Part shown: in pieces, positions 337-18,710 of the stretch | Position numbering within the stretch: position 1 is the stretch's first letter | Layout: each line of letters begins with the position of its first letter | Origin: an uncultured Chloroflexota bacterium | Lineage (GTDB): Bacteria > Chloroflexota > Dehalococcoidia > UBA3495 | NCBI GenBank assembly: GCA_913052545.1 | Contig: CAJXEF010000019.1 | Span: forward strand, 1 to 18,710 | Direction of reading: 5' to 3' | Length of the DNA: 18,710 nucleotides | Made by a program: the position numbers and the translations under genes | Notes under the pieces: model-generated | The model's database searches: none | The model's input: only the letters and a program-made list of their open reading frames with translations | What the model was told of the DNA's origin: nothing

Positions 337-347
337 GTGGTGAAATT

Positions 348-2816: not shown

Positions 2817-2848
2817 GATATGTCGAATACCTTGCTAAGGAGATACCA

Positions 2849-3604: not shown

Positions 3605-3674
3605 CTGTCGCCTTATAGGTTCTTCATCGGTTGATATTACGGCACATTATAGAGGAATTCGATAGTTACCTTCG

Positions 3675-3703
3675 TTGAACCGAAAAATATGCTACTGTAG
3701 AAT
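3675..3703 (+). promoter_or_regulatory. Putative sigma-70-type promoter for the histidine cluster
   Basis: TTGAAC (3675-3680) and TAGAAT (3698-3703) are separated by exactly 17 bp, a good match to the consensus. They lie in the 154-bp gap upstream of the hisZ-like gene. Transcription would begin near 3710, leaving a leader of about 50 nt, too short for a T-box or a classical his attenuator. No other features are seen in this gap. Confidence 0.5.
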
Positions 3704-3758
3704 AGTAAATCACTAAAAGGTTATTAAGTATTTTCTGACTGAGCTACTTGCCTCAATT

Positions 3759-5234
3759 ATGGTTATAAAGCAATCATTAGATCAAAAGCTGTCCGACTTA
3801 TTTTGGTCCTTCGGGTATAGGATTATCACTTTGCCCGTTCTTGGTCCCACTGAATTGTTCCTGCGCAAATCCGGTGGGGAGATGGCAGCTCAAATATACG
3901 ATTTCGCTGATGCATCAGGGAATCAAATATGTCTGCGCCCGGAATTTACAGCGCCCATTATGCGTTATTATTTAGATCATGCCCAGAAAGAAACCTTACC
4001 TGTCAGATGGCAATATGGTGGTCCCGTATTCCGATATAACCTAGAAGATGCAGTTTCGGGTGAGGATCGAGGCCAATTTACGCAGATTGGAGCCGAGCTG
4101 ATTGGTTCAGGCACAGTTTTAGCTGACGCTGAATTACTCACCATTGCGGCGAGAGTGCTTCATGAACTCGATATATGTGATTATAAAATACGAGTGGGAG
4201 ACCTTGGGATTGTAAATAGTGTTCTGGATGTGGCGAATTTATCTGAAAGGGCGCGGGCTTTTTTAGTTTCTCAAATTCCCTTTTTAAGCGATGAGAATAG
4301 CGACCCAGCTAAATTGGAAGAACGGGCCAATCAGTTAAATTTAATAGAGACTGTTTCAGGTGCTAGTGGGTTGAGTCTTGCGATATCTGATCTGGATGAT
4401 GAGCAGGCTCGTCAGGTTCTTAGCGGATTCTTAGGGTGGACCTCTGGGGAATCTAGTGAAGCTTTAGAACCCTATAATCTAGACGATTCACGATTGCCTG
4501 AAAACAGGGATATTCCTGCTGAGCACTGGGGGAATCTAGGGAGAAGAAATCCATCTGATATAGTTGACAGATTGCTCAGAAAGGTCAGAGGTAACGACCA
4601 AATAATCAATCTCAAGCACGGTATAGAATTGATCTCCGAGTTGATTTCCCTGCGAGGGTTGGCTCCAGATACCATTAAAAAAACTGAAGCTTTTATGGTG
4701 AGGGTTGGTGCAGATCTAAAGCCATTCCACCGACTAACCGAGTTAATGGAATTGCTAACATCTGATAATAGCAAAATCATAGTTAACGGGGATCTTGAAC
4801 TTGATTTTGGGTTGGCTAGAGGTCTGGCTTACTACAACGGTATCATTTTTGAGGTTAATCATCCTAGTGTTCCATATCCTCTTGGAGGTGGTGGGAGATA
4901 TGATGATTTGGCGAGAGCACTCGGGAGTGAAGAGAACTTGCCGGCGTTGGGGTTTGCGTATAATTTAGAATCCTTGATGCGACTATCAAAATTCGACGCT
5001 GGTGTGAAAGATAATGACCCTGACCGCCGGGTTTTAGTAGCAGCAACCGATAGGAAATACTTTGGCGCTGTAATAGAAAAAGTTGACGAGCTCTATCAAA
5101 CAGGCGTCGCTGCCGAAGCCTATTTAGAGGTAAAGTCGTTAAACGAGGTTATTACCTACGCCAAGGAGCGCCAGAATAGAGAGGTAATATTGATAAGCTC
5201 GGGAAACGAGTCACGTGTTTATCAAATAAATTAG
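3759..5234 (+). CDS. hisZ: HisZ-like ATP phosphoribosyltransferase regulatory subunit (HisRS paralogue), enlarged
   Basis: This 491-residue class II synthetase-like protein resembles histidyl-tRNA synthetase and HisZ. HisZ forms a complex with HisG and senses histidine in the first step of histidine synthesis. Visible landmarks are motif 2 LRPEFTAPIMRY (59-70), FRYN (91-94), GQFTQIGAELIG (105-116), the histidine-binding-like ARGLAYY (353-359; HisRS has RGLDYY, so Asp is lost) and GGGGRYDDLA (376-385). HisZ is preferred over HisRS because of RPEFTAPI, the loss of the HisRS PQAGRxRxFHQ loop, and its place directly before hisG. Unusually it carries ~130 extra or divergent residues (160-300) and a C-terminal segment (423-491) reminiscent of an anticodon-binding domain. 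No clear Shine-Dalgarno precedes ATG 3759, and the frame is open upstream to 3717, so a non-ATG start a few codons earlier cannot be excluded. Confidence 0.75.
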   Translation: MVIKQSLDQKLSDLFWSFGYRIITLPVLGPTELFLRKSGGEMAAQIYDFADASGNQICLRPEFTAPIMRYYLDHAQKETLPVRWQYGGPVFRYNLEDAVSGEDRGQFTQIGAELIGSGTVLADAELLTIAARVLHELDICDYKIRVGDLGIVNSVLDVANLSERARAFLVSQIPFLSDENSDPAKLEERANQLNLIETVSGASGLSLAISDLDDEQARQVLSGFLGWTSGESSEALEPYNLDDSRLPENRDIPAEHWGNLGRRNPSDIVDRLLRKVRGNDQIINLKHGIELISELISLRGLAPDTIKKTEAFMVRVGADLKPFHRLTELMELLTSDNSKIIVNGDLELDFGLARGLAYYNGIIFEVNHPSVPYPLGGGGRYDDLARALGSEENLPALGFAYNLESLMRLSKFDAGVKDNDPDRRVLVAATDRKYFGAVIEKVDELYQTGVAAEAYLEVKSLNEVITYAKERQNREVILISSGNESRVYQIN

Positions 5235-5251
5235 GTATAAACAGTACGATT

Positions 5252-5279
5252 TTGAGTCCAATATGTCTAAATCTATAAT
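5252..5279 (+). promoter_or_regulatory. Putative internal promoter upstream of hisG
   Basis: TTGAGT (5252-5257) and a perfect TATAAT (5274-5279) are 16 bp apart in the 95-bp gap between the hisZ-like gene and hisG. Such a promoter would let hisG and the downstream genes be expressed separately from the hisZ-like gene. The predicted transcription start is near 5286, giving a leader of ~45 nt. Confidence 0.45.
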
Positions 5280-5329
5280 GTTTTTTCAAGGATAATATAA
5301 CAAATATTAACTTCAATTGTGGAAAGAGT

Positions 5330-6331
5330 GTGGCAAACAGTAATAGCGCTAAATTGAGACTAGTATTACCTAGTGATGGTGAACTTAGTGAGCCGACACT
5401 AGGTTTTATGCGAGATTGTGGAATTCCTGTGAGGCGTCCTAGTGCCCGAAGATACACTGGGTCTATTCCAGCTTTGCCTGGTGTAGAGGTTTTGTTCCAA
5501 CGGACGGCTGACATCACACAAAAAGTTGAAGAAGGTAGTGCGGAACTAGGAATCACAGGATTAGACCGGTTGTTAGAATATCGTAACAACGAGTTGCTAG
5601 TAGTGGCGCTACTTGAAGACCTGGGGTTTGGGCGATGTGAGTTTGTTCTCGCGGTACCGGACGCATGGTTAGATGTTACTTCTGTTGATGATCTCGCGGA
5701 TGTTGCTTTGGATTTTCACCAACACGGAAAGCAGTTACGTATCGCAACTAAATACCCTCGGTTATTACGTAGCCATCTATTTGAACGTGGGATAAATTAC
5801 TTTACCTTGGTTCCGGCTAGTGGGACGTTGGAAGCTGCTCCCGCGGCTGGGTATGCAGATTTAATTGCTGACCTTACTGCAACTGGTACGACCTTACGGG
5901 AGAATGGGCTTAAAACCCTGGAAGGGGGAACTATATTAGTTTCCCAATCTTGCTTGATTGGCAATCTTAATTCTTTATCAAATAACGAGTCCAATACACA
6001 TTTGGCCAGGCATTTAGTTGAGCTGATGGAATCTCATCTTCAGGCTGGACCCTATTTTAGATTAACAGCTAATATAAAAGGATTTTCACCAGAAAGCGTT
6101 AGCGCGACTATATTGGCTCGGCCGAAATTATCTGGATTGAAGGGCCCAACCGTTTCTAGGGTATATAATATCGCCGAAGAGGATTGGTATAGCATTAGCT
6201 TGTTGATCAAAAAGGAAGCTTTGATGGATGCTGTAGATCACTTAAGAGATTGTGGTGGAGTAGAAATTGCAGCTTCTCAGGTTAGTTATTTGTTCAAGGA
6301 GAAATCTAAAGCATTTGACAATCTTTTTTAA
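5330..6331 (+). CDS. hisG: ATP phosphoribosyltransferase, long form
   Basis: HisG joins ATP and PRPP to form phosphoribosyl-ATP, the committed and feedback-controlled step of histidine synthesis. The catalytic part shows LRLVLPSDG at the N terminus, LGITGLDRL (73-81) and the PRPP-binding region with GTLEAAPAAGYADLIADL (165-182) and TATGTTL (183-189). Beyond it, residues ~242-325 form the ACT-like histidine-binding domain (PYFRLTANI, a GPTVS strand, then a helix and VEIAASQV). This makes it HisG-L (333 residues; short HisG is ~210). The start is GTG with GGAAAG 4 bp upstream. Long-form enzymes are normally self-sufficient hexamers, so having a HisZ-like gene directly upstream is unexpected. 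Confidence 0.92.
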   Translation: MANSNSAKLRLVLPSDGELSEPTLGFMRDCGIPVRRPSARRYTGSIPALPGVEVLFQRTADITQKVEEGSAELGITGLDRLLEYRNNELLVVALLEDLGFGRCEFVLAVPDAWLDVTSVDDLADVALDFHQHGKQLRIATKYPRLLRSHLFERGINYFTLVPASGTLEAAPAAGYADLIADLTATGTTLRENGLKTLEGGTILVSQSCLIGNLNSLSNNESNTHLARHLVELMESHLQAGPYFRLTANIKGFSPESVSATILARPKLSGLKGPTVSRVYNIAEEDWYSISLLIKKEALMDAVDHLRDCGGVEIAASQVSYLFKEKSKAFDNLF

Positions 6332-6405
6332 AGATAACGATCACAAAATTATCATCCCAACTCGCGATAGTCATAATCAGGTCTGTTGACTCAAGGACTA
6401 CGAAT

Positions 6406-7164
6406 TTGCCAAATCTACCGATGCATATATATCTAGCGGACCAAGTTTCTCAGCAGCTTGACCTGGGATATGTTCATGATCACATGGGTAGTTGTTTATT
6501 AGGTGCTACAGCGCCTGACATCAGAGCCATGGCGAAATGGGACCGCCAACGAACACATTTTGCCCCTCTCAGTGTCGACAGTGTTGGGACAGGTACGAAA
6601 GAAATGTTTTCTAGGTATCCTAGATTGGCCGATTCGAAATCTCTGACTCCCGAGACAAGAGCATTCATCTTAGGATATGTTTGCCATTTGGCTGCAGATG
6701 AACTTTGGATCACTACTATGTTTAGACCACATTTTGACGAAGGGAGCCCAGGTATAGACAACAAATTGGAGGGTCATATTTGGGATAGAGCTCTTCAATT
6801 AGATATGGATCGATCAGTTATAGAAGAAGATTTCTTTGAATTAGAACCAGAAATGTTACTGAATGGCTCGGAAAATGCCGTTCTGGTCGAATTTTTGGAA
6901 GACGAATTATTATCCGAATGGCGTAACTGGGTATTGAGGTTTCTTGGATGGGATTTCTCTTGGGAAAGGTTGAAAAGGGCATTGAACCGAATGCATAGAG
7001 ATGATGAGGGTGTGCAATTGGTAGTAGATTCATTTCTTAGCAATATGCCAGAAAGTCTAGAGAAGATATATCAGTTTGTTCCGCGATCGATGATTGAATC
7101 ATATAAAGAACGTGTCGTAGTTGAGACCTTAAGTCAGATTAGGGAGTATCTAAGTGAGACTTAA
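6406..7164 (+). CDS. Zinc-dependent phospholipase C-like protein in the his operon
   Basis: The 252-residue protein resembles the zinc-dependent phospholipase C superfamily, alpha-helical metalloenzymes that cleave phosphoester bonds. Likely metal ligands are His7 (PMHIYLA), Asp38 (APDIRA), His51 (RTHF), His94 and Asp98 (CHLAADE) and His114/Asp117 (GHIWD), in the order expected for the fold. There is no signal peptide or membrane segment, unlike secreted PLC toxins, so it should act in the cytoplasm. TTG 6406 is chosen: AAGGA lies 8 bp upstream, and MPNLPMH is a normal family beginning; ATG 6421 is the alternative. It overlaps hisD by 11 bp and follows hisG by 74 bp, so it is cotranscribed with histidine genes. 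The function is unknown; a phosphohydrolase role in the pathway is inference. Confidence 0.7.
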   Translation: MPNLPMHIYLADQVSQQLDLGYVHDHMGSCLLGATAPDIRAMAKWDRQRTHFAPLSVDSVGTGTKEMFSRYPRLADSKSLTPETRAFILGYVCHLAADELWITTMFRPHFDEGSPGIDNKLEGHIWDRALQLDMDRSVIEEDFFELEPEMLLNGSENAVLVEFLEDELLSEWRNWVLRFLGWDFSWERLKRALNRMHRDDEGVQLVVDSFLSNMPESLEKIYQFVPRSMIESYKERVVVETLSQIREYLSET

Positions 7165-8494
7165 TCGATTCACCGGTATGCAAGAAGCCGAGAAATTGTT
7201 GGATCGGTCTGATCCTTTGGATATGGGGACGTTACCGCCTTCAGTTTTGAGACGCACTGAGGCAGCCTTTGGTAAAGATATCACACCGGAGGAATCGGTA
7301 TCGGTTATGCTTCAGGAGATCCAACGAGACGGTGACGATGCAGTGAGACGTTATATAGCACTTTTAGACGGATCTGCTCCACAGCAATTCGAGGTCAGTC
7401 AAGTAGATATAAACTCGGCTCGTAAATCGATTTCAAAGGAGCTTGAAGAGGCACTTTTACTGGCAGCAGAAAGGGTAACTCAATTTCATCAATCTACTAT
7501 GCCTAAAAGTTGGGTGGACCTTGAACAGGGACTAGGTGAGTTAGTCCGACCGTTAGAGAGGGTTGGGTTGTATGCTCCAGGAGGTACTGCATCTTATCCA
7601 TCTACCGTTTTAATGACTGCGATCCCAGCTAAAGTTGCAGGGGTAAAAGAGGTAATTCTGTGTACTCCTAAGATAGGGGATTCTCCTATGAATCCATCAG
7701 TATTGGCAGCAGCTCAAATAGCAGAGGTAGATGTTGTTTACCAAATTGGCGGTGTTCCGGCTATCGCTGCTATGGCTTATGGTACGAGGACGATTCCTAA
7801 GGTAGATAAAATATGTGGGCCAGGAAATTTCTTCGTTTCGTACGCAAAAAAAATGGTTAGGGGGCAAGTTGATATAGATGGCATATTTGGTCCTACTGAA
7901 ACCGTAGTATTAGCTGATCAAAGTGCGAATGCTGCATTTTGTGCTGCGGATCTCATTGCACAGGCTGAGCACGATCCTTTAGCTACTGCTATCCTAATTA
8001 CCAACTCAGACCAGCTGATTATTAATGTTGAGCAAGCACTAGATGAACAATTGAAAGAACTTTCGCGGCGTGAACTTGCCCAAGAAGCCCTCCAGAATAG
8101 GGGCAAGGTAGTGTTGTTGGACAACCTTGATGATGCCTTGGATTTAGCTAACAAAATAGCTCCAGAGCATCTCTGCTTAATGGTGGAAGATCCCTGGACT
8201 TGGGCAGGCAAGGTTAAGAATGCGGGTGGCCTATTCCTAGGTGAGTTCTCTCCAGAAGTTATGGGTGATTATGTCGCCGGTCCCAGCCATGTAATGCCGA
8301 CTGGAGGTACGGCTAGGTTTAACTCAGCTTTAGGAGTACACCAGTTTTTAAGGACCATGCCAGTAGTTGGTCTAAACAAGAATGACTTTGGAATGTTGGG
8401 TGAAGCGGCTGTTCAAATGGCACACGCTGAAGGGCTCACAGGGCATTCGGGAGCTATAAGAATACGCTTGGATCAACTAGGTGCCGAGAACTGA
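7154..8494 (+). CDS. hisD: Histidinol dehydrogenase
   Basis: HisD oxidises L-histidinol to L-histidine in two NAD-dependent steps, the end of the pathway. At 446 residues it is close to the usual length. Recognised blocks are [43 protein letters not shown] and [20 protein letters not shown]. The zinc ligands and catalytic residues known from the E. coli enzyme are all present: Gln270 and His273 (QAEHD), Glu338-His339 (PEHL), Asp372 (GDYVAG) and His431 (EGLTGHSG). The start is GTG inside the end of the preceding gene, with AGGGAG 7 bp upstream, so the two genes are probably translationally coupled. hisC follows after a ~65-bp gap. Confidence 0.97.
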
Positions 8495-8565
8495 TATCTC
8501 ATCAATAACGAGATTGGCTTTGTGCGCCCATATCTAGCCATGAAGTATTCTAAGGAACGATGATT

Positions 8566-9657
8566 ATGCGAGACGTAAGAGAGTTGCTTCTCCCTCACAT
8601 ACGCAAGTTGACTACTTACCAGGGAGTAGATCCCATGGAAGTATTGGCGGAGCAAGCAGGGATAGCACCGGAAAACGTTATCAGATTGAATGGTAATGAG
8701 AACCCATATGGGCCGTCACCTAAAGTTATAGAGGCACTAGGTAATTTTCAGCAATATAATCATTACCCAGACCAGAATCAGAGGCAGATTAGAGAAAAAC
8801 TGGCAGGTTACTTGAATGTACACCCTGATAGGATAGTAGTAGGAAACGGAAGTGATGAACTTATAGATCTTATCTTGCGCATCTTTCTGGCCCCCGGTGA
8901 CAATATAATAATCCCGGTACCAACATTCGGGATGTATTCTTTTTCTACTGAAGTCTGTGGCGGTGAGACTATAACTGTGTCCCGAGATGAAAACTTTGAG
9001 ATTGACGTAGCAGCTATAAAATCATCGATTACATCTAAAACAAAGATAGCTTTTTTGGCTTCACCAAATAACCCTACAGGTAATATAGCTACAGAATCGC
9101 AGATCAGGAGTATTCTTGATACTGAAATAATAGTTGTAGTGGATGAGGCTTATTACGAATTTTGTGGGCAGACAGCCCTTTCTCTTTTGGAAGAGTATCC
9201 CAATTTGATAGTTTTGCGGACTTTTAGTAAATGGGCTGGATTAGCAGGTCTCAGGGTCGGGTTGGGTGTGATGTCTCCTGACATTGCACGCTCCATCATG
9301 AGTATGAAGCCTCCTTATAATGTAAATTTAGCTTCAGAAATAGCATTAACGGCATCTCTTGACGATCTCCCTACATTGACAGGGCGGATAGAGGCGATAG
9401 TTGCAGAACGAGAACGAATGATGGGACTGTTGCAGAATGTACACGGGGTCTGGCCATGGGCGTCTCAAGCTAATTTCATTCTGTGTAGGCTTCCTGATGG
9501 GCGAGGTCAAGAGATATTTGAAGGTATGTGTCGTAGAGGGATTTTCCCTCGTTATTTTAATAATGCGATACTACAAGATTACATGAGGATCAGTGTTGGT
9601 TTTCCTGAGGAAACTGATCGAGTAATCGAAGTCCTTTCGGATTTGGTAGGGAGATAA
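8566..9657 (+). CDS. hisC: Histidinol-phosphate aminotransferase
   Basis: HisC is a PLP-dependent class I/II aminotransferase that converts imidazole-acetol phosphate to histidinol phosphate, using glutamate. The sequence shows the substrate-binding NENPYGPSPKV, GNGSDELIDLIL, ASPNNPTGN, VDEAYYEF and the PLP lysine Lys222 in TFSKWAGLAGLRVG. A C-terminal GRGQEIFEGMCRRGIFPR block carries the conserved arginine region. Two ATG codons compete, 8560 and 8566. AAGGA at 8552-8556 lies only 3 bp from the first but 9 bp from the second, so 8566 (363 residues) is chosen. hisB follows 5 bp downstream. Confidence 0.95.
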   Translation: MRDVRELLLPHIRKLTTYQGVDPMEVLAEQAGIAPENVIRLNGNENPYGPSPKVIEALGNFQQYNHYPDQNQRQIREKLAGYLNVHPDRIVVGNGSDELIDLILRIFLAPGDNIIIPVPTFGMYSFSTEVCGGETITVSRDENFEIDVAAIKSSITSKTKIAFLASPNNPTGNIATESQIRSILDTEIIVVVDEAYYEFCGQTALSLLEEYPNLIVLRTFSKWAGLAGLRVGLGVMSPDIARSIMSMKPPYNVNLASEIALTASLDDLPTLTGRIEAIVAERERMMGLLQNVHGVWPWASQANFILCRLPDGRGQEIFEGMCRRGIFPRYFNNAILQDYMRISVGFPEETDRVIEVLSDLVGR

Positions 9658-9662
9658 AATAA

Positions 9663-10301
9663 ATGGAAGAAAAAACTGACCTGACTATCGCGAATAATTC
9701 GTTAACACCACGAGTCGCGTCTTTGGAAAGAAAAACGGGGGAAACTAATATAAGTGTAATGGTTAATCTGGACGGCGACGGATTTTTCGAAGTAGATACT
9801 GGTAATGGGTTTCTAGACCATATGGTGAGCCAGATAGCCCGCCATGGGTTGTTTGACATCACGTTGCATGCTGTAGGTGATAAGCATGTGGGATGGCATC
9901 ATCTTGTTGAAGATGTTGCCATAATGCTAGGCCGGGCTTTTAATCAGGCGATTGGAGAGGTTAAGGGTATCAGGCGAATGGGTCATTCAATTGCACCACT
10001 TGATGAGACTCTTGCTAGAGTAGTGGTTGATTGCAGTGGGAGACCCTACGCTGTCGTAAATACAGGATTGAATGGCCTCATGGTGGAAACATTATCCGGT
10101 GATCTGGTTGGTCATTTTCTAGAGTCGTTCGCCTTAGAGGGTCGTATTAATATGCATGCCGAGATCTTGGCTGGGGTAAGCCCTCATCACAAGGCCGAGG
10201 CTCTTTGTAAAGCGTTAGGTCGAGCGATGAGGGATGCAGTGGAGCTAGATGTCAGGGCTATGGGTCAAATACCTAGTACTAAAGGGACTCTTGATACTTA
10301 A
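9663..10301 (+). CDS. hisB: Imidazoleglycerol-phosphate dehydratase (monofunctional)
   Basis: This manganese enzyme dehydrates imidazoleglycerol phosphate to imidazole-acetol phosphate. Both halves of the family's metal-binding repeat are visible: LDHM (51-54), HHLVED (79-84), then the second SPHHKAEAL (173-181); the signature STKGTL lies near the C terminus. The text around the first HHxxED (GWHHLVEDVAI) is divergent from the usual DHHTVEDxGI, but the metal ligands are intact. There are 212 residues and no N-terminal HAD-type phosphatase domain, so histidinol-phosphate phosphatase must be supplied by another protein. GGGAG ~9 bp upstream supports the ATG. It is the last gene of the cluster and ends 4 bp from the convergent crotonase gene. 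Confidence 0.94.
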   Translation: MEEKTDLTIANNSLTPRVASLERKTGETNISVMVNLDGDGFFEVDTGNGFLDHMVSQIARHGLFDITLHAVGDKHVGWHHLVEDVAIMLGRAFNQAIGEVKGIRRMGHSIAPLDETLARVVVDCSGRPYAVVNTGLNGLMVETLSGDLVGHFLESFALEGRINMHAEILAGVSPHHKAEALCKALGRAMRDAVELDVRAMGQIPSTKGTLDT

Positions 10302-10305
10302 CTTC

Positions 10306-11076
10306 CTATCGTCCCTTCCGTTCTAAGAATTCAGGGAAGGCTTCTTCTACCCCATAACCACGTACTTGATTGGTGGTAAAATCTTTTTCATTTGCCCACA
10401 TTTGTTCCAAGGTACATCCCTTGTGTTGAAGCAGCAGATCTTTGATACCCATCACAGATTCTCTTCTATGACCTGCTATAGTCTTGGCTATTTCCATAGT
10501 TTTCGAACGGAGTTGGTCACAGGGAACTAGGTGATTAAGTAAACCTATGCGGTAGGATTCCTCTGCTTCGATCACTCTACCTGTAAATAATAATTCCTTG
10601 GCCATGGGCCATCCAACTTGATTTGTAAGGGTCCATGTTGAGTTAATCCTCCCATATGCGGCTGCTAAAAATCTAAAGCTAGAATGCTCACATCCCAGGC
10701 GGAAGTCCAGAGATGACGCTAGTACCGATCCGCCTCCATAGGCCAAGCCATTCATCATGCCTATAATCGGCTTCGGGGAAGCCGATATCTCGTACTGGTG
10801 ATGAACCCTAGCAGCGTCTTCTTGATCTCTTTCTTCTTGAGTCAGATTTTGAGCTCGCTCTCGTTGTTCATGGATATCACCCCCTGCTGAAAACGCTCTT
10901 TGTCCAGAGCCTGTTAGTACTATGCATCCCACCTCATCGTCGTTGTTCAGTTCTAATACTGCTTCGTGTAATTCAGTACCTAATTTCCTATTCATAGCAT
11001 TGAGAACCTCGGGGCGATTCAATGTGATTATGGCGACCCCGTCTTCTTTATCAACAAGTATGTGATCGTACGGCAT
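10306..11076 (-). CDS. Enoyl-CoA hydratase/isomerase family protein (crotonase)
   Basis: This 256-residue crotonase-fold protein acts on acyl-CoA thioesters. The oxyanion-hole segments are present: AFSAGGDI (61-68) and NGLAYGGGSVLA (109-120). Of the two catalytic glutamates of classical hydratase, the one equivalent to rat Glu164 is kept as Glu161 (MAKELLFTG), but the Glu144 position (family QPEI) falls in FLAAAYG and is lost. A simple 2-enoyl-CoA hydratase is therefore doubtful; isomerase, hydrolase or another crotonase reaction is possible. The start has an excellent Shine-Dalgarno, AGGAGG, 6 bp upstream. It converges on hisB with a 4-bp gap and no visible terminator, and is divergent from the FAD reductase gene. 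Confidence 0.85.
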   Translation of the reverse strand: MPYDHILVDKEDGVAIITLNRPEVLNAMNRKLGTELHEAVLELNNDDEVGCIVLTGSGQRAFSAGGDIHEQRERAQNLTQEERDQEDAARVHHQYEISASPKPIIGMMNGLAYGGGSVLASSLDFRLGCEHSSFRFLAAAYGRINSTWTLTNQVGWPMAKELLFTGRVIEAEESYRIGLLNHLVPCDQLRSKTMEIAKTIAGHRRESVMGIKDLLLQHKGCTLEQMWANEKDFTTNQVRGYGVEEAFPEFLERKGR

Positions 11077-11100
11077 TTTAGCCTCCTAGCCCTTCAGATT

Positions 11101-11130
11101 ATTAGTATACACTGGTTCTAAATTAGTATA
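11101..11130. repeat. Direct repeat ATTAGTATA, 21-bp period, upstream of the crotonase gene
   Basis: ATTAGTATA occurs at 11101-11109 and again at 11122-11130, a start-to-start distance of 21 bp, close to two helical turns. The second copy continues into TATAAT (11127-11132). A related AGTATAAT lies at 11277-11284. This geometry suits a dimeric regulator binding one face of the DNA, about 25-55 bp upstream of the crotonase start. Confidence 0.35.
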
Positions 11131-11267
11131 ATGTCAGATCGCCGTATTGTAGGGTTTGGTCAAAACGTAGTCAAATAGCTTGGTGGTGTTAATGGAGCTA
11201 AGGTAGCATGCCCTAAGACCCAATTAATTCCACACAGTAAACTCAATCAAACGTACTGTAATTAGAT

Positions 11268-11296
11268 ATTATACATAGTATAATCTGGTATCTCGA
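11268..11296. promoter_or_regulatory. Symmetrical dyad with TATAAT on both strands (possible bidirectional promoter)
   Basis: ATTATAC-ATA-GTATAAT (11268-11284) is a perfect 7-bp inverted repeat with a 3-bp spacer. It places a perfect -10 box on the plus strand (11279-11284) and one on the minus strand (11273 to 11268). On the minus strand TCGAGA (11296 to 11291) lies exactly 17 bp upstream of that -10. On the plus strand the -35 is weak (CTGTAA, 11256-11261, 17 bp). It lies in the 277-bp divergent region between the crotonase and flavoprotein genes. Nothing else beyond the direct repeat is recognised in that region. Confidence 0.45.
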
Positions 11297-11353
11297 GCTC
11301 TTGGATGATTACCATGGGTACGAGGTTACCTTACCATTAGAGGTGAAGCCAAG

Positions 11354-12571
11354 TTGGACGATGTAGTGGTGGTGGGTGCTGGACCAGCTGGGAACAACGC
11401 CGCTCTGATATTAGCGAAAAATGGATTTCAAGTCAGGGTATTCGATAGCCGCACGGAGATAGGTAACAAGCTCTGTACGGGAATTATAGGAAATGAATGT
11501 GCCAGCAGATTCCCTATCTCCGAATCTCTGGTTTACAGTGAACCAAAATCAGCTAAACTGATCACCCCAGACAACGACAGTTTAGAATTCCATGTCGCTT
11601 TTCCACAAGCAAAAATCGTAGACAGGGTATCATATGTAAATTCCTTCGCGGAGAAGGCTATCGCTGAAGGAGCTCAGTATCATTTGGGAGAGAGCGTTTT
11701 AGACCTTGAGCCGTATGAATCTTCTGTCCGTGTTAAGACCGAACAAAGCCAGTACGATACTAGGACAGTGGTCATAGCCGCTGGATTCAGCACAAATCTT
11801 ACCCAAAAAGTAGGCTTAGGTAGGGTTTCTGATTATGTGACCGCTGTACAAGCAGAGGTTAAAACTAACATAGCCGAGCAAACAGAAGTCTATCTGGGAC
11901 AAGATATTGCCCCGGGTTTCTTTGGATGGGTAGTACCTCAGAGATCAGGTAGGTCGTTGGTTGGAATATTGGCTAGATCCAGGCCTCAGCAATATATGGA
12001 TCGTTTCTTAGAAAAATTGGACCGACAAGGTAGTATAGCGGATATCACAAAACCTCCTGCTAAATGGGGGATACCTCTACGGCCTTTGAAGGACACTGTA
12101 GCTGACAGGATACTGATCGTTGGTGATTCAGCTGGTCAAGTGAAGCCAACTACTGGAGGAGGCATTTATTACTCGTTAGCTAGCAGCGAGATAGCGGCTG
12201 ACGTTTTGAAGAAAGCTTTGATAAAAGGAGATTTATCAAACATATATTTACAGGAATATCAGCGTAGATGGAAAGAATTGTTATCCCAGGAATTAGAAAC
12301 AGGTTATGCGGCGCGTAGAATGTATGAATACCTGGGCGATGGACAGGTCAGTTCGTTGGCTCGCCAGGCTTATAAAAGCAGCTTTATCCGGGAAGTCTTA
12401 AACTCTCCCAAAGGTTCCTTCGATTGGCATGGTCAGACTATACAAACCTTTTTAAACAACCCTATATCTAGAGGGATATTAGGATTAGTCAATCCGCTGC
12501 TCGCTACCTTTGCTCGTACACCTGGTCTCGAAGATGATTTGGTACGGCCTACTACGGGGTATGTGAACTAG
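11354..12571 (+). CDS. FAD-dependent oxidoreductase, geranylgeranyl reductase family
   Basis: The 405-residue flavoprotein has an N-terminal Rossmann motif GAGPAG (8-13), the cysteine-containing KLCTGIIG segment (~38-45) typical of the geranylgeranyl reductase group, PGFFGWVVPQ in the middle and the second FAD-binding motif VGDSAGQVKPTTGGG (~256-270). Members of this family reduce double bonds of isoprenoid chains, for example in quinones, carotenoids, chlorophyll or archaeal lipids. Which isoprenoid is used here cannot be told. A TTG start at 11354 is supported by GAGGTGAA ~6 bp upstream and by the Rossmann motif beginning at residue ~4. It is monocistronic; meaB converges on it after 63 bp. 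Confidence 0.83.
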   Translation: MDDVVVVGAGPAGNNAALILAKNGFQVRVFDSRTEIGNKLCTGIIGNECASRFPISESLVYSEPKSAKLITPDNDSLEFHVAFPQAKIVDRVSYVNSFAEKAIAEGAQYHLGESVLDLEPYESSVRVKTEQSQYDTRTVVIAAGFSTNLTQKVGLGRVSDYVTAVQAEVKTNIAEQTEVYLGQDIAPGFFGWVVPQRSGRSLVGILARSRPQQYMDRFLEKLDRQGSIADITKPPAKWGIPLRPLKDTVADRILIVGDSAGQVKPTTGGGIYYSLASSEIAADVLKKALIKGDLSNIYLQEYQRRWKELLSQELETGYAARRMYEYLGDGQVSSLARQAYKSSFIREVLNSPKGSFDWHGQTIQTFLNNPISRGILGLVNPLLATFARTPGLEDDLVRPTTGYVN

Positions 12572-12591
12572 CCAATCAGTTTCTGAAGGAT

Positions 12592-12601
12592 GACCTAGGT
12601 C
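12592..12601. repeat. Palindrome GACCTAGGTC downstream of meaB
   Basis: This is a perfect 10-bp palindrome in the 63-bp convergent gap between the flavoprotein and meaB genes. The nine-base core GACCTAGGT recurs at 13723-13731 on the other side of meaB. It has no loop and no T-run, so it is not a recognisable terminator. Confidence 0.3.
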
Positions 12602-12634
12602 GGCAGTAATGATGTGGTGGGTCTAGAATTAAGA

Positions 12635-13615
12635 TTATAAATTTTGTAGTCCCCGTAGGTCTGGGTGAGACTTGCTTTCGGTCGTGTTGATCAGCTCAAT
12701 TGCTGCTGAATATGGGTCCTGAGCTCCAGCCTCAATGTTTTTGAGCACTTCAACAATCTGGAGATCATTATCGACCGCTGCTCTTAAACGTCGTCCTAGC
12801 TCTTCTTCAACTGTTTCTAAATATTCACGTTTACGACGAGCAGACCGACGTATAGTTAATTCTGAATTTTGGATCAGAAATCGCCGATGATTTTCAATGC
12901 TTTCCCATGTTTCATCTAATCCCTTACCGGCATTAGCTTGTGTCATTATTACCGGAGGGATCCATGCGGGCATTGATGAGGACAATTGTATTGTGTTAGT
13001 TATTGACGCGGCGAGTTGTCCCGCGCCTGATCTATCTGATTTATTTACTAAATATAAATCGGCGATTTCCATCAATCCAGCTTTTAGAGTCTGTACAGCA
13101 TCTCCTGATTCAGGGACTAACGCTACTACTATGGAATCGGCTGCTCCCATGATACTCACTTCAGTCTGACCAACTCCCACGGTTTCGACTATGATGATAT
13201 CTTTTCCTGATGCGTCAAATAATCGAACTAAGGTTTTTACTACCCTTGATAAGCCTCCCGAGTGCCCCCGCGTTGCCACACTGCGGATGAATACTTCTGA
13301 ATCTGTATGATGGCTCTGCATTCGGATACGGTCACCTAATATAGCTCCACCACTAAATGGGCTGGTTGGATCTACTGCTATGATCCCTACTTTTTTATTT
13401 AGACCTCTTAAGAGCTTGGTTAATTCCGTGACGATTGTGCTCTTCCCTGCACCCGGTGGTCCCGTTATCCCAATTGTATAGGCATTCCCAGTGTATTTAT
13501 CGATTTGACTCATTAATTCTGATACACCAGGCTGGGTGCGTTCTATCATAGTGATTGCTATAGATAGGGCTCTTTGTTCCCCTTTTAACAATCGTTCTAA
13601 TAAATTTGAAGTCAT
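12635..13615 (-). CDS. meaB: Methylmalonyl-CoA mutase-associated GTPase (MeaB/ArgK type G3E P-loop)
   Basis: MeaB is a chaperone-like GTPase that protects and gates cobalamin loading of methylmalonyl-CoA mutase or a related B12 mutase. At 326 residues it has the expected length. The order of motifs is Walker A TGPPGAGKS (51-59), AVDPTSPFSGGAILGDRIRM (80-99), the switch region VETVGVGQTE (143-152), and the guanine-specificity motif NKSD (181-184). The C-terminal dimerisation part contains REYLETVEEELGRRLR. No mutase gene is nearby in the window, but the crotonase ~1.5 kb away would fit an acyl-CoA context. No strong Shine-Dalgarno precedes ATG 13615, though the first residues match the family. 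GACCTAGGT occurs on both sides of the gene. Confidence 0.92.
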   Translation of the reverse strand: MTSNLLERLLKGEQRALSIAITMIERTQPGVSELMSQIDKYTGNAYTIGITGPPGAGKSTIVTELTKLLRGLNKKVGIIAVDPTSPFSGGAILGDRIRMQSHHTDSEVFIRSVATRGHSGGLSRVVKTLVRLFDASGKDIIIVETVGVGQTEVSIMGAADSIVVALVPESGDAVQTLKAGLMEIADLYLVNKSDRSGAGQLAASITNTIQLSSSMPAWIPPVIMTQANAGKGLDETWESIENHRRFLIQNSELTIRRSARRKREYLETVEEELGRRLRAAVDNDLQIVEVLKNIEAGAQDPYSAAIELINTTESKSHPDLRGLQNL

Positions 13616-13722
13616 TTGACACCGACTATAATTTTATGGGGTATAGAAACTATATTGTTAGCAGTTGAGTAAACTAAATCGGAATTATTAGATACTCATT
13701 TATGGGTAACGGTATGCAGGTA

Positions 13723-13731
13723 GACCTAGGT
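13723..13731. repeat. Second GACCTAGGT copy, upstream of meaB
   Basis: This repeats nine bases of the 12592-12601 palindrome, including the 8-bp palindrome ACCTAGGT. It lies in the 169-bp gap between meaB and the cysS fusion gene. A role as an operator or a remnant of a flanking duplication is conceivable; chance is also plausible. Confidence 0.25.
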
Positions 13732-13784
13732 ATATGTGTGTAGTCTTGGTGTAGCAATTTCAAAGATTCGGGTGGGCTTAACTG

Positions 13785-15983
13785 TCAGTGATGGAAACCA
13801 GTGATAAACCCTTTCGCGTCCGATGTGATCAACAAATCAGGTCTGTTTCCCCACCGTTTGAGGAACCTCCCGAAATTTTTTCTGCTCAGTTCGTCACGCT
13901 GATTATCGTCAAGCTCTGTCCATTGGCGGTGTTCGTGACGGGTTAAAGGCAGACTGTTATCAGCGATTATACGGTACCCTTTGTCCTTGAATTGAAAGCT
14001 GAAATCTATGTCCAGATTTCGGTAGAATCTAAAAGCCTCACGCATTAAACCAACGTTTTTCAGAGAGTCTCTTCTAAAAGTCATACAATAGGCTTGCATG
14101 GCATCCGAGTCACCGTGCTCGACTTCCTCATGGAAGTGCTGCATGTCGTCGGTACTCAATCCATAAGGGCCAAATATTCCTACAGAATCATCTGACAGGT
14201 TTTCCCCTACGATGCCAAGAAAATCTCCGATTAACTCTACTGAAGCATCGAATAGCAGGATGTTTCTTCCTTGGCATTGCTTTAAAGCGATGTTTTTACC
14301 TGCGGCGTCACCTATTACATGATCACAATGAATCACTTTTACGTTTTCGTGGTTATCTTGAAATTGTTCTAACCATTCAGCTGTACCATCTGTAGACCCG
14401 TTATCAACTATAATGATTTCTGATGAGTATGCATCTGAATATTTCAAAGCACTATTAGCCCAGCGTTCTACGTCTGATACGTAGTTATAAGCATTCAATA
14501 TAAGGCTGTAATCGAATTTCTCTGGTCGGCCAAGGAGAGATTCTACTTCTCTAGATGAAGAGACCGTAGGCCAACGATCTTGGAGCCTTTCAAATGGAGT
14601 CTTGGGTCTGATCCGAGTCTCCACATTATTGTCTTCGACTAGGTAGCCTTCTGTGGTGAGTTTGTTCCTTAACGAGTCCGATTTCTCAAACTGGTCATCT
14701 TCTCGTAGACCGGACCGATTATTTATTGTTTGTATTATAGAATCAGGCACGTCGTATGTGGGTGGAATACTGTCTAACCCAAACCCTAATACGTGATCAA
14801 AGTCCATTATTAAGTCTAGCTTTGCAGGCCCGGGTAATTCTGATCTCACCATTTCCCACGTTAACGCAAGTGCTGTAGGTATATCTAGATCATTGTGCAC
14901 GGATGACCAGAATTTGTGGCGCCATTCTTCCGTTTCAGAAGGGAGAGAGTTTAAAATTGGATCGTTTTTCCAATTCCATACCCGGTCCCGCAAATTGGTG
15001 AGTGCCTTCTCACTAGCCTTCAAAGAATTGAAAGTGAAATTGAGGCGGTGTCTGTAACGAACGGTACTGCAGAGATATCTGAAAGATAGCGGGTCAAATC
15101 CTCGGGCGATCAAATCATCTATTAAAAACACATTCCCAGACGATTTGGCCATCTTGGCCCCATCTGCAAGCAAATGTTGCCCATGGATCCAGTAGTTTAC
15201 GTGCTGCTGTCCGAAAGCTCCCTCACTTTGTGCTATCTCGTCCTCGTGATGAGGGAAAATATTGTCCACACCGCCTGTATGAATGTCGAATTTGTCGCCC
15301 AGATATTTTGAAGCCATCGCTGAGCACTCTATGTGCCATCCGGGAAAACCTTCTCCCCATGGACTATCCCATTTCACTTCTCTTCCTGGCTCGGCTGCCT
15401 TCCACAGCGTGAAATCTCTTGGGTCCCTTTTTAGAGGATCTGTTTCGACCCTAACTCCTTCTAAGAGGTCTCCTCCGAAGTTTCTAGAAAGTTTTCCGTA
15501 ATCATCGAAGCCGCCCACGGCAAAATAGATGTTGTCCCCTGCTACATAGGCGTTTCCATTTTGTAGTAGTTTTTCAACTATAGAAATCATTTCAGGGATA
15601 TGCTGGGAAGCCCAAGGATATACTTTGGCTGGCAAAATATTGATCCTAGATTCGTCCTCGTGGAAACTATCGGCATAAAACTGAGCAATTTCCTGTACGG
15701 TTTTGCCCTCCGCTAATGCGGCTAATATAACCTTATCTCCACCGGTTTCGAGCAGTTCTTGGCGCATGTGCCCCACGTCGGTAATGTTTTTGACGTGGTA
15801 GACTTCACTGCCATCATATTCGAGGACTCGTTTTATCCAATCTGCCATGAGATATGTCCGCAGATTTCCTATGTGAGCATACCTATATACTGTGGGACCA
15901 CAGGTATACATTCGATAGGATCCATGGTTGATTGGGCGAATTTCTTCTATCTGTTTGGTGAGAGTGTTAAAGAGGCTTAGCAA
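13785..15983 (-). CDS. cysS: Cysteine--tRNA ligase fused to a C-terminal family 2 glycosyltransferase domain
   Basis: The 732-residue protein begins as a complete cysteinyl-tRNA synthetase: HIGN (37-40), the zinc ligands Cys28, Cys220, His245 and Glu249 in TCGPTVY, HIECSAM and PHHEDEIAQ, and a KMSKS loop reading KMAKS (277-281). The DALR-like helical bundle and usual C-terminal segment follow, to ~residue 461. After a ~30-residue linker comes a GT-A family 2 glycosyltransferase (~490-732) with an N-terminal strand, IIIVDNGSTDGTAEWL (524-539), FDASVE (578-583) at the DxD position and FYRNLDIDFSF. The linker holds no ATG, GTG or TTG codon in frame, so this is one polypeptide. TTG 15983 is chosen because AGAGGT lies 7 bp upstream and Cys28 then matches E. 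coli numbering; GTG 16034 has no Shine-Dalgarno. Confidence 0.9.
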   Translation of the reverse strand: MLSLFNTLTKQIEEIRPINHGSYRMYTCGPTVYRYAHIGNLRTYLMADWIKRVLEYDGSEVYHVKNITDVGHMRQELLETGGDKVILAALAEGKTVQEIAQFYADSFHEDESRINILPAKVYPWASQHIPEMISIVEKLLQNGNAYVAGDNIYFAVGGFDDYGKLSRNFGGDLLEGVRVETDPLKRDPRDFTLWKAAEPGREVKWDSPWGEGFPGWHIECSAMASKYLGDKFDIHTGGVDNIFPHHEDEIAQSEGAFGQQHVNYWIHGQHLLADGAKMAKSSGNVFLIDDLIARGFDPLSFRYLCSTVRYRHRLNFTFNSLKASEKALTNLRDRVWNWKNDPILNSLPSETEEWRHKFWSSVHNDLDIPTALALTWEMVRSELPGPAKLDLIMDFDHVLGFGLDSIPPTYDVPDSIIQTINNRSGLREDDQFEKSDSLRNKLTTEGYLVEDNNVETRIRPKTPFERLQDRWPTVSSSREVESLLGRPEKFDYSLILNAYNYVSDVERWANSALKYSDAYSSEIIIVDNGSTDGTAEWLEQFQDNHENVKVIHCDHVIGDAAGKNIALKQCQGRNILLFDASVELIGDFLGIVGENLSDDSVGIFGPYGLSTDDMQHFHEEVEHGDSDAMQAYCMTFRRDSLKNVGLMREAFRFYRNLDIDFSFQFKDKGYRIIADNSLPLTRHEHRQWTELDDNQRDELSRKNFGRFLKRWGNRPDLLITSDAKGFITGFHH

Positions 15984-16106
15984 ATTGAGTACCTCTTGGG
16001 TGTTCGTGGAGATGATATAACTGAAGTTTACCACGGCTCATCTAGCTTTGCATTAGAGTGGGTCTCTATTTATTGGCTAGTATGGTTAAAGATATGCTAT
16101 AAATTA

Positions 16107-16484
16107 TTATTGGCCCACTAAGGTTATCGTTATAGCCTGACCCGGTTGTATTTCTTTGAATCGGGTGGTATCTCCTAGTACTTTCCCAATCACGGTCACT
16201 GCGCTGGCCGCTCTAATTTCTGTCCCCCGACTAGCTGGGGTTACACCGAAGAAAATGCAAAATGCATGCCCTGGTGGCCAATACCCAAGATCCCCTTCTT
16301 CAACTATTTCCTGAGGATTTTCCAGGATTTCTTCTAAAGGAATAGTGAAATATATCTCCTCACCCCAAGTATTAGTAGTAGTTGTAATAGGGAGAATCCC
16401 TTCTAATTTATTAGCTATGGTGGTGTCGTTTAGAGCAGCCTCCATGACTAGATCACCAGAACTGATCGTAATTTCATATGCCAT
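16107..16484 (-). CDS. Cyclophilin-like fold protein (TM1367/DUF369-like)
   Basis: This 125-residue beta-rich protein matches the small cyclophilin-like family found in many bacteria and archaea: AALNDTTIANKL (16-27), the central NTWGEEIYFTIP (38-49), GDLGYWPPGHAFCIFFG (64-80) and a late ASAVTVIGKVLGD. The family shares the cyclophilin barrel, but prolyl isomerase activity is not established, and its physiological role is unknown. It has no signal peptide. A weak AAGAG sequence precedes ATG 16484. It sits 61 bp downstream of the DAO-type oxidase and 123 bp upstream of the cysS fusion on the same strand, so it could be cotranscribed with either. Confidence 0.8.
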   Translation of the reverse strand: MAYEITISSGDLVMEAALNDTTIANKLEGILPITTTTNTWGEEIYFTIPLEEILENPQEIVEEGDLGYWPPGHAFCIFFGVTPASRGTEIRAASAVTVIGKVLGDTTRFKEIQPGQAITITLVGQ

Positions 16485-16545
16485 AATTGCTCTTTTATTT
16501 AATCATGTTTTGGATAGAGCACTAAGTATTGTCGAGACGATTCTG

Positions 16546-17673
16546 TTATTTAGCGGCAAATACTCGATCGGGTAGGCAGCTGTCAATCGACAAAGATGTT
16601 TTACCTTCAGTAATCAAGTCAGATATAGATTTACCAATGGCGGGGCTTAACAATATGCCCTTTTTCCCAGCCCCTGTCGCCAAGAATACGTTAGACCATG
16701 AGGGAGCAGGACCGATGATAGGCAACCAATCGGGAGTAACTGGCCTTAGACAAGCCGTGTGTAAAACTAATGTTGCATCTGCCAATCTAGGGATCAACGT
16801 AGTAGCCCCCTTCATGATTGATAACTTAGCCGATTCAGTTAGGTCTTTACTGAACCCTTTCCATTCTTCGGTGCTGCCGCACCAAATTTGACCGTCGGGT
16901 TTACTGTAAATAGATCCTCCTCCTCCCGAGAAGTCATATTGTAAAGCCGTACCAGGCAATTCAAGTCTGAGTATTTCTCCCTTTAATGGAGACACAGGTA
17001 TTTGGGTGCCGAGCCAATTCTCAGCATCTTGTGACCATGGACCGGTAGCTATGACCAATGTCTCACAAGGGATTGTGGCGCTATCAAGTTTTACTGCAGT
17101 TACGCGGTCATTTTGAAGTTGTATGCCGGTAACGTTTCCACTTATGAATGAGACTCCCATGTTTTCGGCAGCCTTAGCCAAGGCTAAAGTATATTGATAG
17201 CTATTTACAGATGCGTTTCCGTTGACCAAGAGGCCACTTGATGATTCGGGCGCTATACGTGGCTCCAATTCTTGAAGTTCTTGTGCGGTAAGCCAATCTG
17301 CTGAAAAATCCTTATTTGCCAGTTCGTTGAATCTTTGATGGGTTTCTCTAAGATCAGAGCTCTCGGAATGATCGAAACAAACTTTAATCAGCTCTATACG
17401 ACGCCATTCGTAATCAATTCCAGTTGCTTCTTTTAGGGGTTCCCACAGGTCACTGTGTAACAAGTAAGATTCCATGGCTAGATGGCCAAGGGGACCAGGT
17501 ATATTGGTCCCTTCAAGAGGATTGAGACCTCCGGCGGCGTAACCCGAGGCTTGGGTACCTACACCTTCTCGTTCTATCACTGTGCATCGGATTCCTGCGA
17601 GTGAAAGGTTATATGCTGTAGCGCAACCGGCAGCTCCCCCTCCGATAATAACAACTTCAGGGTTATTAGCCAT
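16546..17673 (-). CDS. FAD-dependent amine/amino-acid oxidoreductase (DAO family)
   Basis: The 375-residue flavoprotein has the Rossmann dinucleotide motif VVIIGGGAAGCATAYNL (7-23) and ends its first beta-alpha-beta unit with Glu (VIERE). The second half contains ETLVIATGPWS and a C-terminal RPVTPDWLPIIGPAP plus ATGAGKKGILLSPAIGK, typical of the DAO family (glycine/sarcosine oxidase, D-amino-acid dehydrogenase, ThiO). No thiamine genes are adjacent, so ThiO is possible but not supported by context. ATG 17673 is chosen because AAGGAGT lies just upstream at the right spacing; an upstream ATG at 17697 would place that Shine-Dalgarno inside the gene. It is divergent from the FmdB-like gene. Confidence 0.83.
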   Translation of the reverse strand: MANNPEVVIIGGGAAGCATAYNLSLAGIRCTVIEREGVGTQASGYAAGGLNPLEGTNIPGPLGHLAMESYLLHSDLWEPLKEATGIDYEWRRIELIKVCFDHSESSDLRETHQRFNELANKDFSADWLTAQELQELEPRIAPESSSGLLVNGNASVNSYQYTLALAKAAENMGVSFISGNVTGIQLQNDRVTAVKLDSATIPCETLVIATGPWSQDAENWLGTQIPVSPLKGEILRLELPGTALQYDFSGGGGSIYSKPDGQIWCGSTEEWKGFSKDLTESAKLSIMKGATTLIPRLADATLVLHTACLRPVTPDWLPIIGPAPSWSNVFLATGAGKKGILLSPAIGKSISDLITEGKTSLSIDSCLPDRVFAAK

Positions 17674-17716
17674 TTCGGACTCCTTAAAACACGTCAAATT
17701 GCAACATAGGCGATGG

Positions 17717-17738
17717 ATCCACTACTTCTGGAGTGGAT
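17717..17738. promoter_or_regulatory. Perfect 7-bp inverted repeat in a divergent promoter region (possible operator)
   Basis: ATCCACT (17717-17723), an 8-bp spacer and AGTGGAT (17732-17738) form a perfect dyad between the divergent oxidase and zinc-ribbon genes. No T-run follows and both genes point away, so a terminator is unlikely. It could be a regulator binding site controlling one or both. Confidence 0.4.
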
Positions 17739-17788
17739 AAGATACCTGGACACCTGTAAGATATCGGATAGTATATCAGGAGGAGCTT

Positions 17789-18031
17789 ATGCCTATTTAC
17801 GAATATTATTGTGTAAGTTGTAATCAGGAGTTTGAATCACTGAGGCCGGCTTCACAATCACAGGAACCTGCCCCGTGTAAACAATGCGGAGAGTCATCTG
17901 AACGTCAGCTCTCGACATTTTCATTCAAATCCAATACTTTTACGGCTCCGAAGCTGAAGCCAGCGACTAAAGCTATGCGTTCATATGATGTGAATAATCA
18001 GGGTGATTCCTCGCCCCAGCCTGCCGAATAA
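17789..18031 (+). CDS. FmdB-family zinc ribbon protein
   Basis: This 80-residue protein begins MPIYEYYCVSC and has two CxxC pairs, Cys8/Cys11 and Cys30/Cys33, which form the zinc ribbon characteristic of the FmdB regulatory-protein family. The remaining half is polar and probably disordered. The family is widespread and its biochemical role is not settled; regulation of a formamidase/amidase operon is the historic suggestion. A very strong Shine-Dalgarno (AGGAGGAG) lies just upstream of ATG 17789. The gene ends 4 bp from the convergent DUF971 gene. Confidence 0.9.
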   Translation: MPIYEYYCVSCNQEFESLRPASQSQEPAPCKQCGESSERQLSTFSFKSNTFTAPKLKPATKAMRSYDVNNQGDSSPQPAE

Positions 18032-18035
18032 CGTA

Positions 18036-18374
18036 TTATCCATCTGGTTGGATAGGTCGCTCTTTACAGGCAATACAGGTGCAAATAGAACGCAAGTGTT
18101 CATAAGTATAAATTCCGGTGTAGTGAGTGTCGCTCCATAGGAACTGCAAAGCATAATTTCCAACTTGTATTTGGTCCACTGCAGTCACATCTTGAGGTAC
18201 TTGATCAGGGTCCAGTCGCGGTTTGCCTGTCATTTCCTCGACACAATTAGCACAGTGGCATCGAAGTCTGAGAAACCTGTGGGGGTAAATACTACGGTGC
18301 CCATCATCCCACAATATAATGATTTGATTACCATCAATTTGAACTTCTACCGGCCTGATTACGTCAGATGCCAT
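18036..18374 (-). CDS. DUF971 protein (gamma-butyrobetaine hydroxylase N-terminal-like) with two CxCxxC motifs
   Basis: The 112-residue protein is a stand-alone DUF971/GBBH_N-like domain. Evidence: RPVEVQIDGNQIIILWDDG at the N terminus (7-25), FLRLRCHCANCVEEMTG (34-50), LDPDQVPQDV (54-63) and VGNYALQFLWSDTHYTGIY (71-89). In related proteins this domain binds a metal or accompanies Mrp/HCF101-type iron-sulphur carriers. Here there are two CxCxxC clusters, Cys39/41/44 and Cys98/100/103, enough for a zinc or iron-sulphur site. An AAGGTGA-type Shine-Dalgarno lies upstream of ATG 18374. It is convergent with the FmdB gene and downstream of the thiamine-diphosphate enzyme on the same strand. Confidence 0.85.
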   Translation of the reverse strand: MASDVIRPVEVQIDGNQIIILWDDGHRSIYPHRFLRLRCHCANCVEEMTGKPRLDPDQVPQDVTAVDQIQVGNYALQFLWSDTHYTGIYTYEHLRSICTCIACKERPIQPDG

Positions 18375-18468
18375 CTACTATTATCACCTTAATTCATATC
18401 GGTGCGCACTGACAGGATTAGTAATTTCAGGGTTCAGTAAGCACACAGAGATCCAGTTAATGTTGTTA

Positions 18469-18710
18469 TTATAATCCAGTCGGCGCTGCGGGGGGGAAAT
18501 ATTCCTGAACAGGTATTTCTATAACTGAGGGCATGCCTGAACGAATAGCTTCGGTCACTGCATCACCAATCTGATCAGCCTGCTCAACGTAAAAACCTTT
18601 TGCCCCGAAAACTTCAGCAAGCTTGTCAAATCGTGGGTTAGTGAGATTCACCCCAACATAATGTTCTTCATGAAGGTTCTTTTGTTGCGATTTTTCGGCT
18701 CCCATACAAT
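18469..18710 (-). CDS. Thiamine-diphosphate-dependent enzyme, C-terminal fragment (acetolactate synthase-like)
   Basis: The frame is open to the right edge of the window, so only the last ~80 residues are seen. They match the end of the pyrophosphate-binding domain of TPP enzymes: MGAEKSQQ, then NPRFDKLAEVFGAKGFYVEQ, a helix (AVTEAIRSG) and the closing strand PSVIEIPV. The acetolactate synthase/oxalyl-CoA decarboxylase/sulphoacetaldehyde group all end this way, so the reaction cannot be assigned. A 94-bp gap with no recognised features separates it from the DUF971 gene. Confidence 0.75.
   Translation of the reverse strand, partial: CMGAEKSQQKNLHEEHYVGVNLTNPRFDKLAEVFGAKGFYVEQADQIGDAVTEAIRSGMPSVIEIPVQEYFPPAAPTGL

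Follow-up and report, generated by a model that had tools for sequence, protein, structure and literature searches.

What does a cysteinyl-tRNA synthetase (CysRS) do when a glycosyltransferase is joined to its C-terminal end? This question is raised by a gene of an uncultured Chloroflexota bacterium, on contig CAJXEF010000019.1 (assembly GCA_913052545.1), whose positions 1 to 18,710 were analysed and are called the window here. At 13785..15983 a single uninterrupted frame encodes both enzymes; its coordinates had been given correctly in the original prediction, which omitted that the gene lies on the minus strand. The answer proposed here, tentatively and at somewhat less than an even chance, is that the protein would be a glycosyltransferase docked on tRNA-Cys, which glycosylates tRNA-Cys or Cys-tRNA and which, as the long form, could charge the tRNA as well. 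What recurs across the family is a reader of the tRNA anticodon joined to a glycosyltransferase, with or without a synthetase core.

An anticodon-binding domain joined to a glycosyltransferase

The window protein consists of a CysRS catalytic core (15012..15938; Pfam tRNA-synt_1e, residues 16-324), a CysRS anticodon-binding domain (ABD; 14601..14777, residues 403-461), a linker (14514..14600, residues 462-490) and a GT-A family 2 glycosyltransferase domain (GT; 13788..14513, residues 491-732), all on the minus strand. In the ABD, R423, R427, F432 and D436 are the equivalents of residues contacting G34 of the anticodon, and D451 belongs with them.

A short form, in which ABD and GT stand without the CysRS core, emerged from 301 Chloroflexota genomes scanned with a GT profile, which matched in 82 of them at E ≤ 1e-22. 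By hand count, 94 GT places were listed, 40 in frames of at least 700 amino acids (aa) and 54 in shorter ones. A hidden Markov model of the ABD, built from stand-alone CysRSs, was applied to 53 of the 54 short-frame places (all save G458:C224) and to 5 of the 40 long-frame places. It matched directly before the GT in 50 of the 53 at E < 1e-3. One of these, L230, was excluded as a broken long form with a partial CysRS core, which leaves the ABD-GT arrangement in 49 of 52 short frames; in the others the match is weak (L249, E 0.0058) or absent (L254 and L260). Besides the 58 GT frames, only one gene matched among 1588 open reading frames. This gene, in L220, encodes an unfused CysRS with HIGN/KMAKS-like motifs of the fused type and lies tail to tail with an ABD-GT gene, about 20 bp away. 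When ten short forms were tested with Pfam CysS_C, five scored above the cut-off and three below it, and in two the family was absent. The CysRS core was present in all five long-frame places fetched.

The short-form ABD is highly conserved where the tRNA is read. R423, R427, A435, D436 and G446 are invariant in the 49 short forms and D451 in 48 of 48, and position 432 is Y in 18, W in 17 and F in 14. Four ABD positions drawn at random were equally conserved in 44 of 100,000 draws. The CysRS core is absent, yet R423, R427 and D436 are invariant; the tRNA-reading residues are thus present even without a synthetase core. In a quick GT tree, the short forms fall into two supported clades of 16 rows (support 100) and 34 rows (support 96, one row being without a clear ABD), with the long forms between them. 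We know of no counterpart of the short form; both domain families are themselves known.

The same residues are kept in the long form. The window protein has an ABD with G34 contacts, as expected of a CysRS, and so do 87 of the 88 long-form rows; R423, R427 and D436, the anticodon contacts of the E. coli enzyme, are each retained in 87 rows.

The fused gene

The frame of the fused gene is open as far up as a GTG at 16034 and has no stop inside. Translation likely starts at TTG 15983, which gives 732 aa plus stop, because this is the commonest length among the relatives listed and AGAGG stands just 5' of the TTG. The CysRS core has a HIGN motif (15864-15875, residues 37-40), a KMAKS motif (15141-15155, residues 277-281) and the zinc ligands C28, C220, H245 and E249. 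In the GT are found DNGSTDGT (14382-14405, residues 527-534), a D-x-S replacing D-x-D (14241-14249), LDID with the probable base D658 (14004-14015) and HEH (13929-13937), again all on the minus strand. The motifs that had been described as intact (HIGN, Cys28, Cys220, His245, Glu249, KMAKS and DNGSTDGT) were each found at the residue claimed.

In Pfam, the window protein matched class I synthetase and glycosyltransferase families and nothing else; tRNA-synt_1e (323.8 bits) and Glycos_transf_2 (59.2 bits) both exceed their cut-offs. The latter score and the GT-A fold place the GT in family GT2/GT-A, and a score of 417.3 bits against the TIGR00435 cysS profile (cut-off 340) places the protein among the CysRSs. 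Zinc ligands and motifs of the HIGH/KMSKS type, as HIGN/KMAKS variants, are present throughout the long-form rows (66 F1, 14 F1b and 8 F2). The claim that the linker has no in-frame ATG, GTG or TTG holds for residues 455-495 and fails just outside them, the start-codon-free stretch being flanked by GTG412, GTG454 and TTG496. In principle, internal initiation at GTG412 might yield a short form from the window gene.

Among 45 long-form rows, the D-x-S motif begins with D in 44 and ends with S in 41, so that the canonical D-x-D is not found. Row L042 was left out of one alignment (A4), and L049 contains unknown letters (X). The catalytic site as a whole is near-invariant across the 45 long forms; a uniformly degenerate site, which the original prediction had named as a refuting result, was not seen. 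The fold neighbours of the GT (GalNAc-T2, PcManGT, WrtF and SpsA, all GT-A folds) share 16-20% identity with it, carry D-x-D, or the D-x-H of GalNAc-transferases, where the window protein has D-x-S, and reveal neither donor nor acceptor.

Distribution and conservation

A protein database was searched with residues 455-749 of the window protein, and 927 proteins matched at E ≤ 1e-3. PF01406 and PF00535, as assigned by reading, occur together in 116 of the 120 matches listed; the other four are apparent fragments of 420-455 aa on contigs of 1.5-2.8 kb. On genome contigs, 44 loci were located, all titled Chloroflexi/Chloroflexota, Dehalococcoidia or SAR202. The original prediction had taken this for a true fusion outside the standard synthetase architectures and had advised a search for it in related genomes; both Pfam scores and relatives bear the fusion out. 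No stop or frameshift that separates the two genes was found in the fused family, save in one broken copy: in L230 (G575:C39), a long-form copy, the CysRS part is split over two overlapping frames and the gene is apparently disrupted. In 55 rows chosen from the listed relatives, one of them near-identical to the window protein, mean pairwise identity is 76% for the GT and 74% for the CysRS part, with 81% in the catalytic core and 57% over residues 341-505.

On scanning 245 genomes of one class, the GT profile matched at E ≤ 2.1e-59 in 32, in frames of at least 715 aa in 29 and of 217-476 aa in the remaining three; the 193 matches at E ≤ 1e-3 are mostly weaker, ordinary-looking GT2 proteins. 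Divergent fusions of 770-923 aa (eight were read) occur in other Chloroflexota genomes, and among 120 matches listed for this set, relatives are named Ktedonobacterales, Ktedonobacteraceae, Ktedonosporobacter and Kouleothrix. Seven of the eight divergent long forms (L135-L140 and L142) have a His-rich C-terminal tail of the metal-binding kind, e.g. HSHEHQHWPDHAHTHPH.

A paralogue of the housekeeping enzyme

The fused protein is, judging from sequence comparison, a paralogue and not the housekeeping CysRS. The counts come from related genomes and not from the window's own. A stand-alone CysRS, for which the original prediction had advised a search, is encoded in all 12 genomes reached via the fused gene (in G002 as two pieces in one frame). 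A hand tally of 69 genomes of one order gave 33 with both genes, one with the fused gene only (G284), 32 with the stand-alone gene only and three with neither, fused genes being recognized by frame length and the split gene of G251 entered as stand-alone. A separate housekeeping synthetase thus accompanies the fusion in 12 of 12 genomes, and in 33 of 34 in that order.

A CysRS tree was computed from 71 of 73 rows (a Nonomuraea CysRS and MshC were left out) and rooted at the midpoint; it holds no true MshC row. All 33 fused CysRS domains group together in a single clade (support 100/99), which adjoins L155, an unfused Chloroflexota CysRS, and then CysRSs from Burkholderia and Vibrio plasmids. 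On the opposite side of the tree lie 27 of the 30 stand-alone Chloroflexota CysRS rows and two MshC-like proteins.

Proposed mechanism and alternative explanations

In the proposed mechanism, the ABD would grip tRNA-Cys at G34 and the CysRS half would charge the gripped tRNA with cysteine. The GT half would use a nucleotide sugar as donor and glycosylate tRNA-Cys, either close to the anticodon loop or at another site, or else its cysteinyl end. Meanwhile, the stand-alone CysRS would serve ordinary translation. The wider proposal, that Chloroflexota possess a family of dedicated tRNA-Cys glycosyltransferases which attach sugar to tRNA-Cys or to the cysteine that Cys-tRNA-Cys carries, the long form both charging and glycosylating, is put forward with more reserve, at little better than one chance in three. 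The ABD-GT short form lends indirect support to the earlier idea of a sugar-modified tRNA.

Several observations weigh against the proposed docking. In five further long forms (L243 and L255-L258) the CysRS catalytic motifs and the GT are kept, but the ABD is worn. L243 is without the domain, the ABD model matched at E < 1e-3 in only one of the five (none in another scan), R423 is retained in one, and R427, D436 and D451 are retained in four each. Because of these five proteins, confidence in the docked glycosyltransferase, as in the dedicated family, was lowered slightly, and the standing of a spare synthetase (see below) was raised by as little. The GT site of the short forms is looser than that of the long form: among 50 rows (L230 included) D101 is found in 47, D180 in 46, N50 in 43, D49 in 29, S103 in 25 and H207 in 21, and H77 is mostly replaced. 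Some short forms may hence be inactive or use other substrates. The deep branches of the GT tree have weak support and give no direction of change from long to short form. No neighbouring gene is common to long and short forms and points to RNA modification, and no dedicated second tRNA-Cys was seen in seven genomes, in each of which ARAGORN, with one search pattern, gave one tRNA-Cys. It might also be argued that the ABD is retained merely for folding; this is disfavoured because the tRNA contacts would then not need to be invariant.

If the tRNA is read and not modified, the protein could be a sensor or regulator, which is considered unlikely. The acceptor of the GT would then be another molecule (lipid, glycan, protein), and through the ABD tRNA-Cys or its charging state would switch the GT; alternatively, nucleotide-sugar binding by the GT would tune the supply of Cys-tRNA. 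That the tRNA contacts are the best-conserved part of the short-form ABD, while the GT site varies, suits such a role, as does a guanylyltransferase-like gene in 7 of 20 short-form neighbourhoods, which an ordinary glycan pathway would predict. However, the long-form neighbourhoods examined showed no conserved glycan operon, and the near-invariant catalytic site of the 45 long forms likewise weighs against a sensor. Still somewhat less credit is given to a simple coupling, in which a spare CysRS for stress or drug tolerance is joined to a GT with unrelated work. The CysRS half looks fully competent, duplicated synthetases are common according to the available part of one source (PMC4787780), and the five long forms with worn ABDs retain CysRS motifs and GT. 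A spare synthetase does not, however, account for 49 short forms that retain ABD and GT without the CysRS core, and in one order the 34 low-scoring second copies all lie in frames of 727-955 aa, without a short frame among them. That two separate genes were joined by an error of assembly or annotation, to which practically no probability was assigned, was ruled out, as relatives on many separate contigs, some of them megabase-long, share the architecture.

By analogy with mycothiol synthesis, to which the original prediction had drawn attention, the fused protein might make a cysteinyl-sugar low-molecular-weight thiol, with the GT building the amino sugar to which adenylated cysteine is transferred. 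MshC is indeed a CysRS paralogue, as stated in those parts of two publications that were available (PMC9736012, PMC2922099), and an MshC-like gene occurs about 6-8 kb from the GT in 2 of 20 short-form loci. Nevertheless, this explanation is improbable. The window protein scores 218.7 bits against an MshC cut-off of 485.1, most long forms examined retain the ABD, and the short form lacks the core with which cysteine would be activated. Genome G358 holds a separate MshC-like gene beside the fusion, MshA-like genes occur with and without the fusion alike (31 of 33 and 27 of 31 genomes, none above the cut-off), and BshC was found in 0 of 64 genomes. The MshC analogy gains no support from these comparisons, and MshC-type identity was rejected on the presence of the ABD, the low profile score and the position of MshC-like rows (two Chloroflexota rows only) elsewhere in the tree.

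Relation to known systems

E. coli CysS (1U0B) shares with the window protein the catalytic core, zinc ligands, ABD and G34 contacts, and its fold matches the window model over residues 1-461. It differs in having HIGH and KMSKS in place of HIGN and KMAKS and in lacking the GT of about 240 residues; in related genomes, moreover, the fused protein is a second copy in addition to a stand-alone CysRS. MshC (3C8Z, 8HFM) has the cysteine-activating CysRS-type core in common with it, but the MshC structures match the window model only to residue 403, whereas the window protein retains the ABD.

Other synthetase paralogues joined to a further domain are LysX (LysRS-MprF), MetRS-aminotransferase and MtRS-cupin, and the CysRS paralogues in print are MshC and CysRS*, as far as the available parts of these sources go (PMC9437257, PMC7694997, PMC2922099). 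LysX and MtRS-cupin resemble the present family, within what those parts describe, in that a synthetase is joined to another enzyme or domain as a second copy. Here, however, the partner is a glycosyltransferase, no MprF-like aminoacyl-tRNA transferase domain was found by Pfam, and a short form without the synthetase core exists. In the printed fusions found, the synthetase is coupled either to a reaction consuming the charged tRNA or to one providing the amino acid. No CysRS-glycosyltransferase is described in the available parts of the open-access literature searched, which does not extend to most journals under subscription or to any bioRxiv preprint.

Queuosine glycosyltransferases are a precedent for a sugar on tRNA; to our knowledge, tRNA-Cys (GCA) carries no queuosine. 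The present enzyme differs from these, and from GluQRS, in being a GT-A protein that bears a CysRS ABD. GluQRS (YadB) is a synthetase-like protein that modifies an anticodon, according to the part of the source available (PMC9437257). A sugar placed on tRNA-Cys would represent a tRNA modification of a new kind, specific to one amino acid; according to whether tRNA-Cys or its cysteine receives the sugar, the product would be a new hypermodification of RNA or an aminoacyl-tRNA that is glycosylated. Should the tRNA control the GT instead, cysteine-tRNA status would be linked directly to glycan synthesis. The phylum concerned is little studied and includes the SAR202 bacteria.

Gene neighbourhood and related genes

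A gene for a MeaB-like GTPase lies downstream of the fused gene in the window (12638-13615, same strand). Of 45 loci (44 and the window; the fused gene of L022 was not picked out), 39 have such a gene 3' of the fused gene and on the same strand, separated from it by 43 bp to 3.2 kb. Loci of the second long-form clade did not show it, and it is therefore taken as a sign of shared ancestry, not of function. A first search pattern for a second tRNA-Cys, with 13 of its 30 loci scanned, returned tRNA-Ala(TGC), a tRNA-Gly or nothing. None of the 631 plasmid and 20 phage records with a match covered 80% of the fused protein.

The guanylyltransferase-like genes near short forms resemble mannose-1-phosphate guanylyltransferase and lie at distances of 355 bp to 6.9 kb (L206-L209, L212, L216 and L221). 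Three of the seven were tested against a profile and scored 294-314 bits, below the cut-off of 373. They give a hint that GDP-mannose could be the donor.

Chloroflexota also encode CysRS paralogues of about 400 aa that are without an ABD and resemble MshC (L147, L148, L204:4303-5559 and L205:13730-15004). The L147, L148 and L204 proteins score 374-391 bits against MshC, below its cut-off, and one or more of the group may be a mycothiol-like cysteine ligase outside Actinobacteria. An operon of the MshC-like gene and the short form was rejected, since unrelated genes lie between them in L204. When 64 genomes from one order were scanned, 58 had MshA-like GT4 genes, the best at 412 bits (cut-off 462.5). 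A CysRS of a related, second type, on the Vibrio coralliilyticus plasmid pOCN014 (L203), adjoins a non-ribosomal peptide synthetase cluster and is possibly a self-protection copy.
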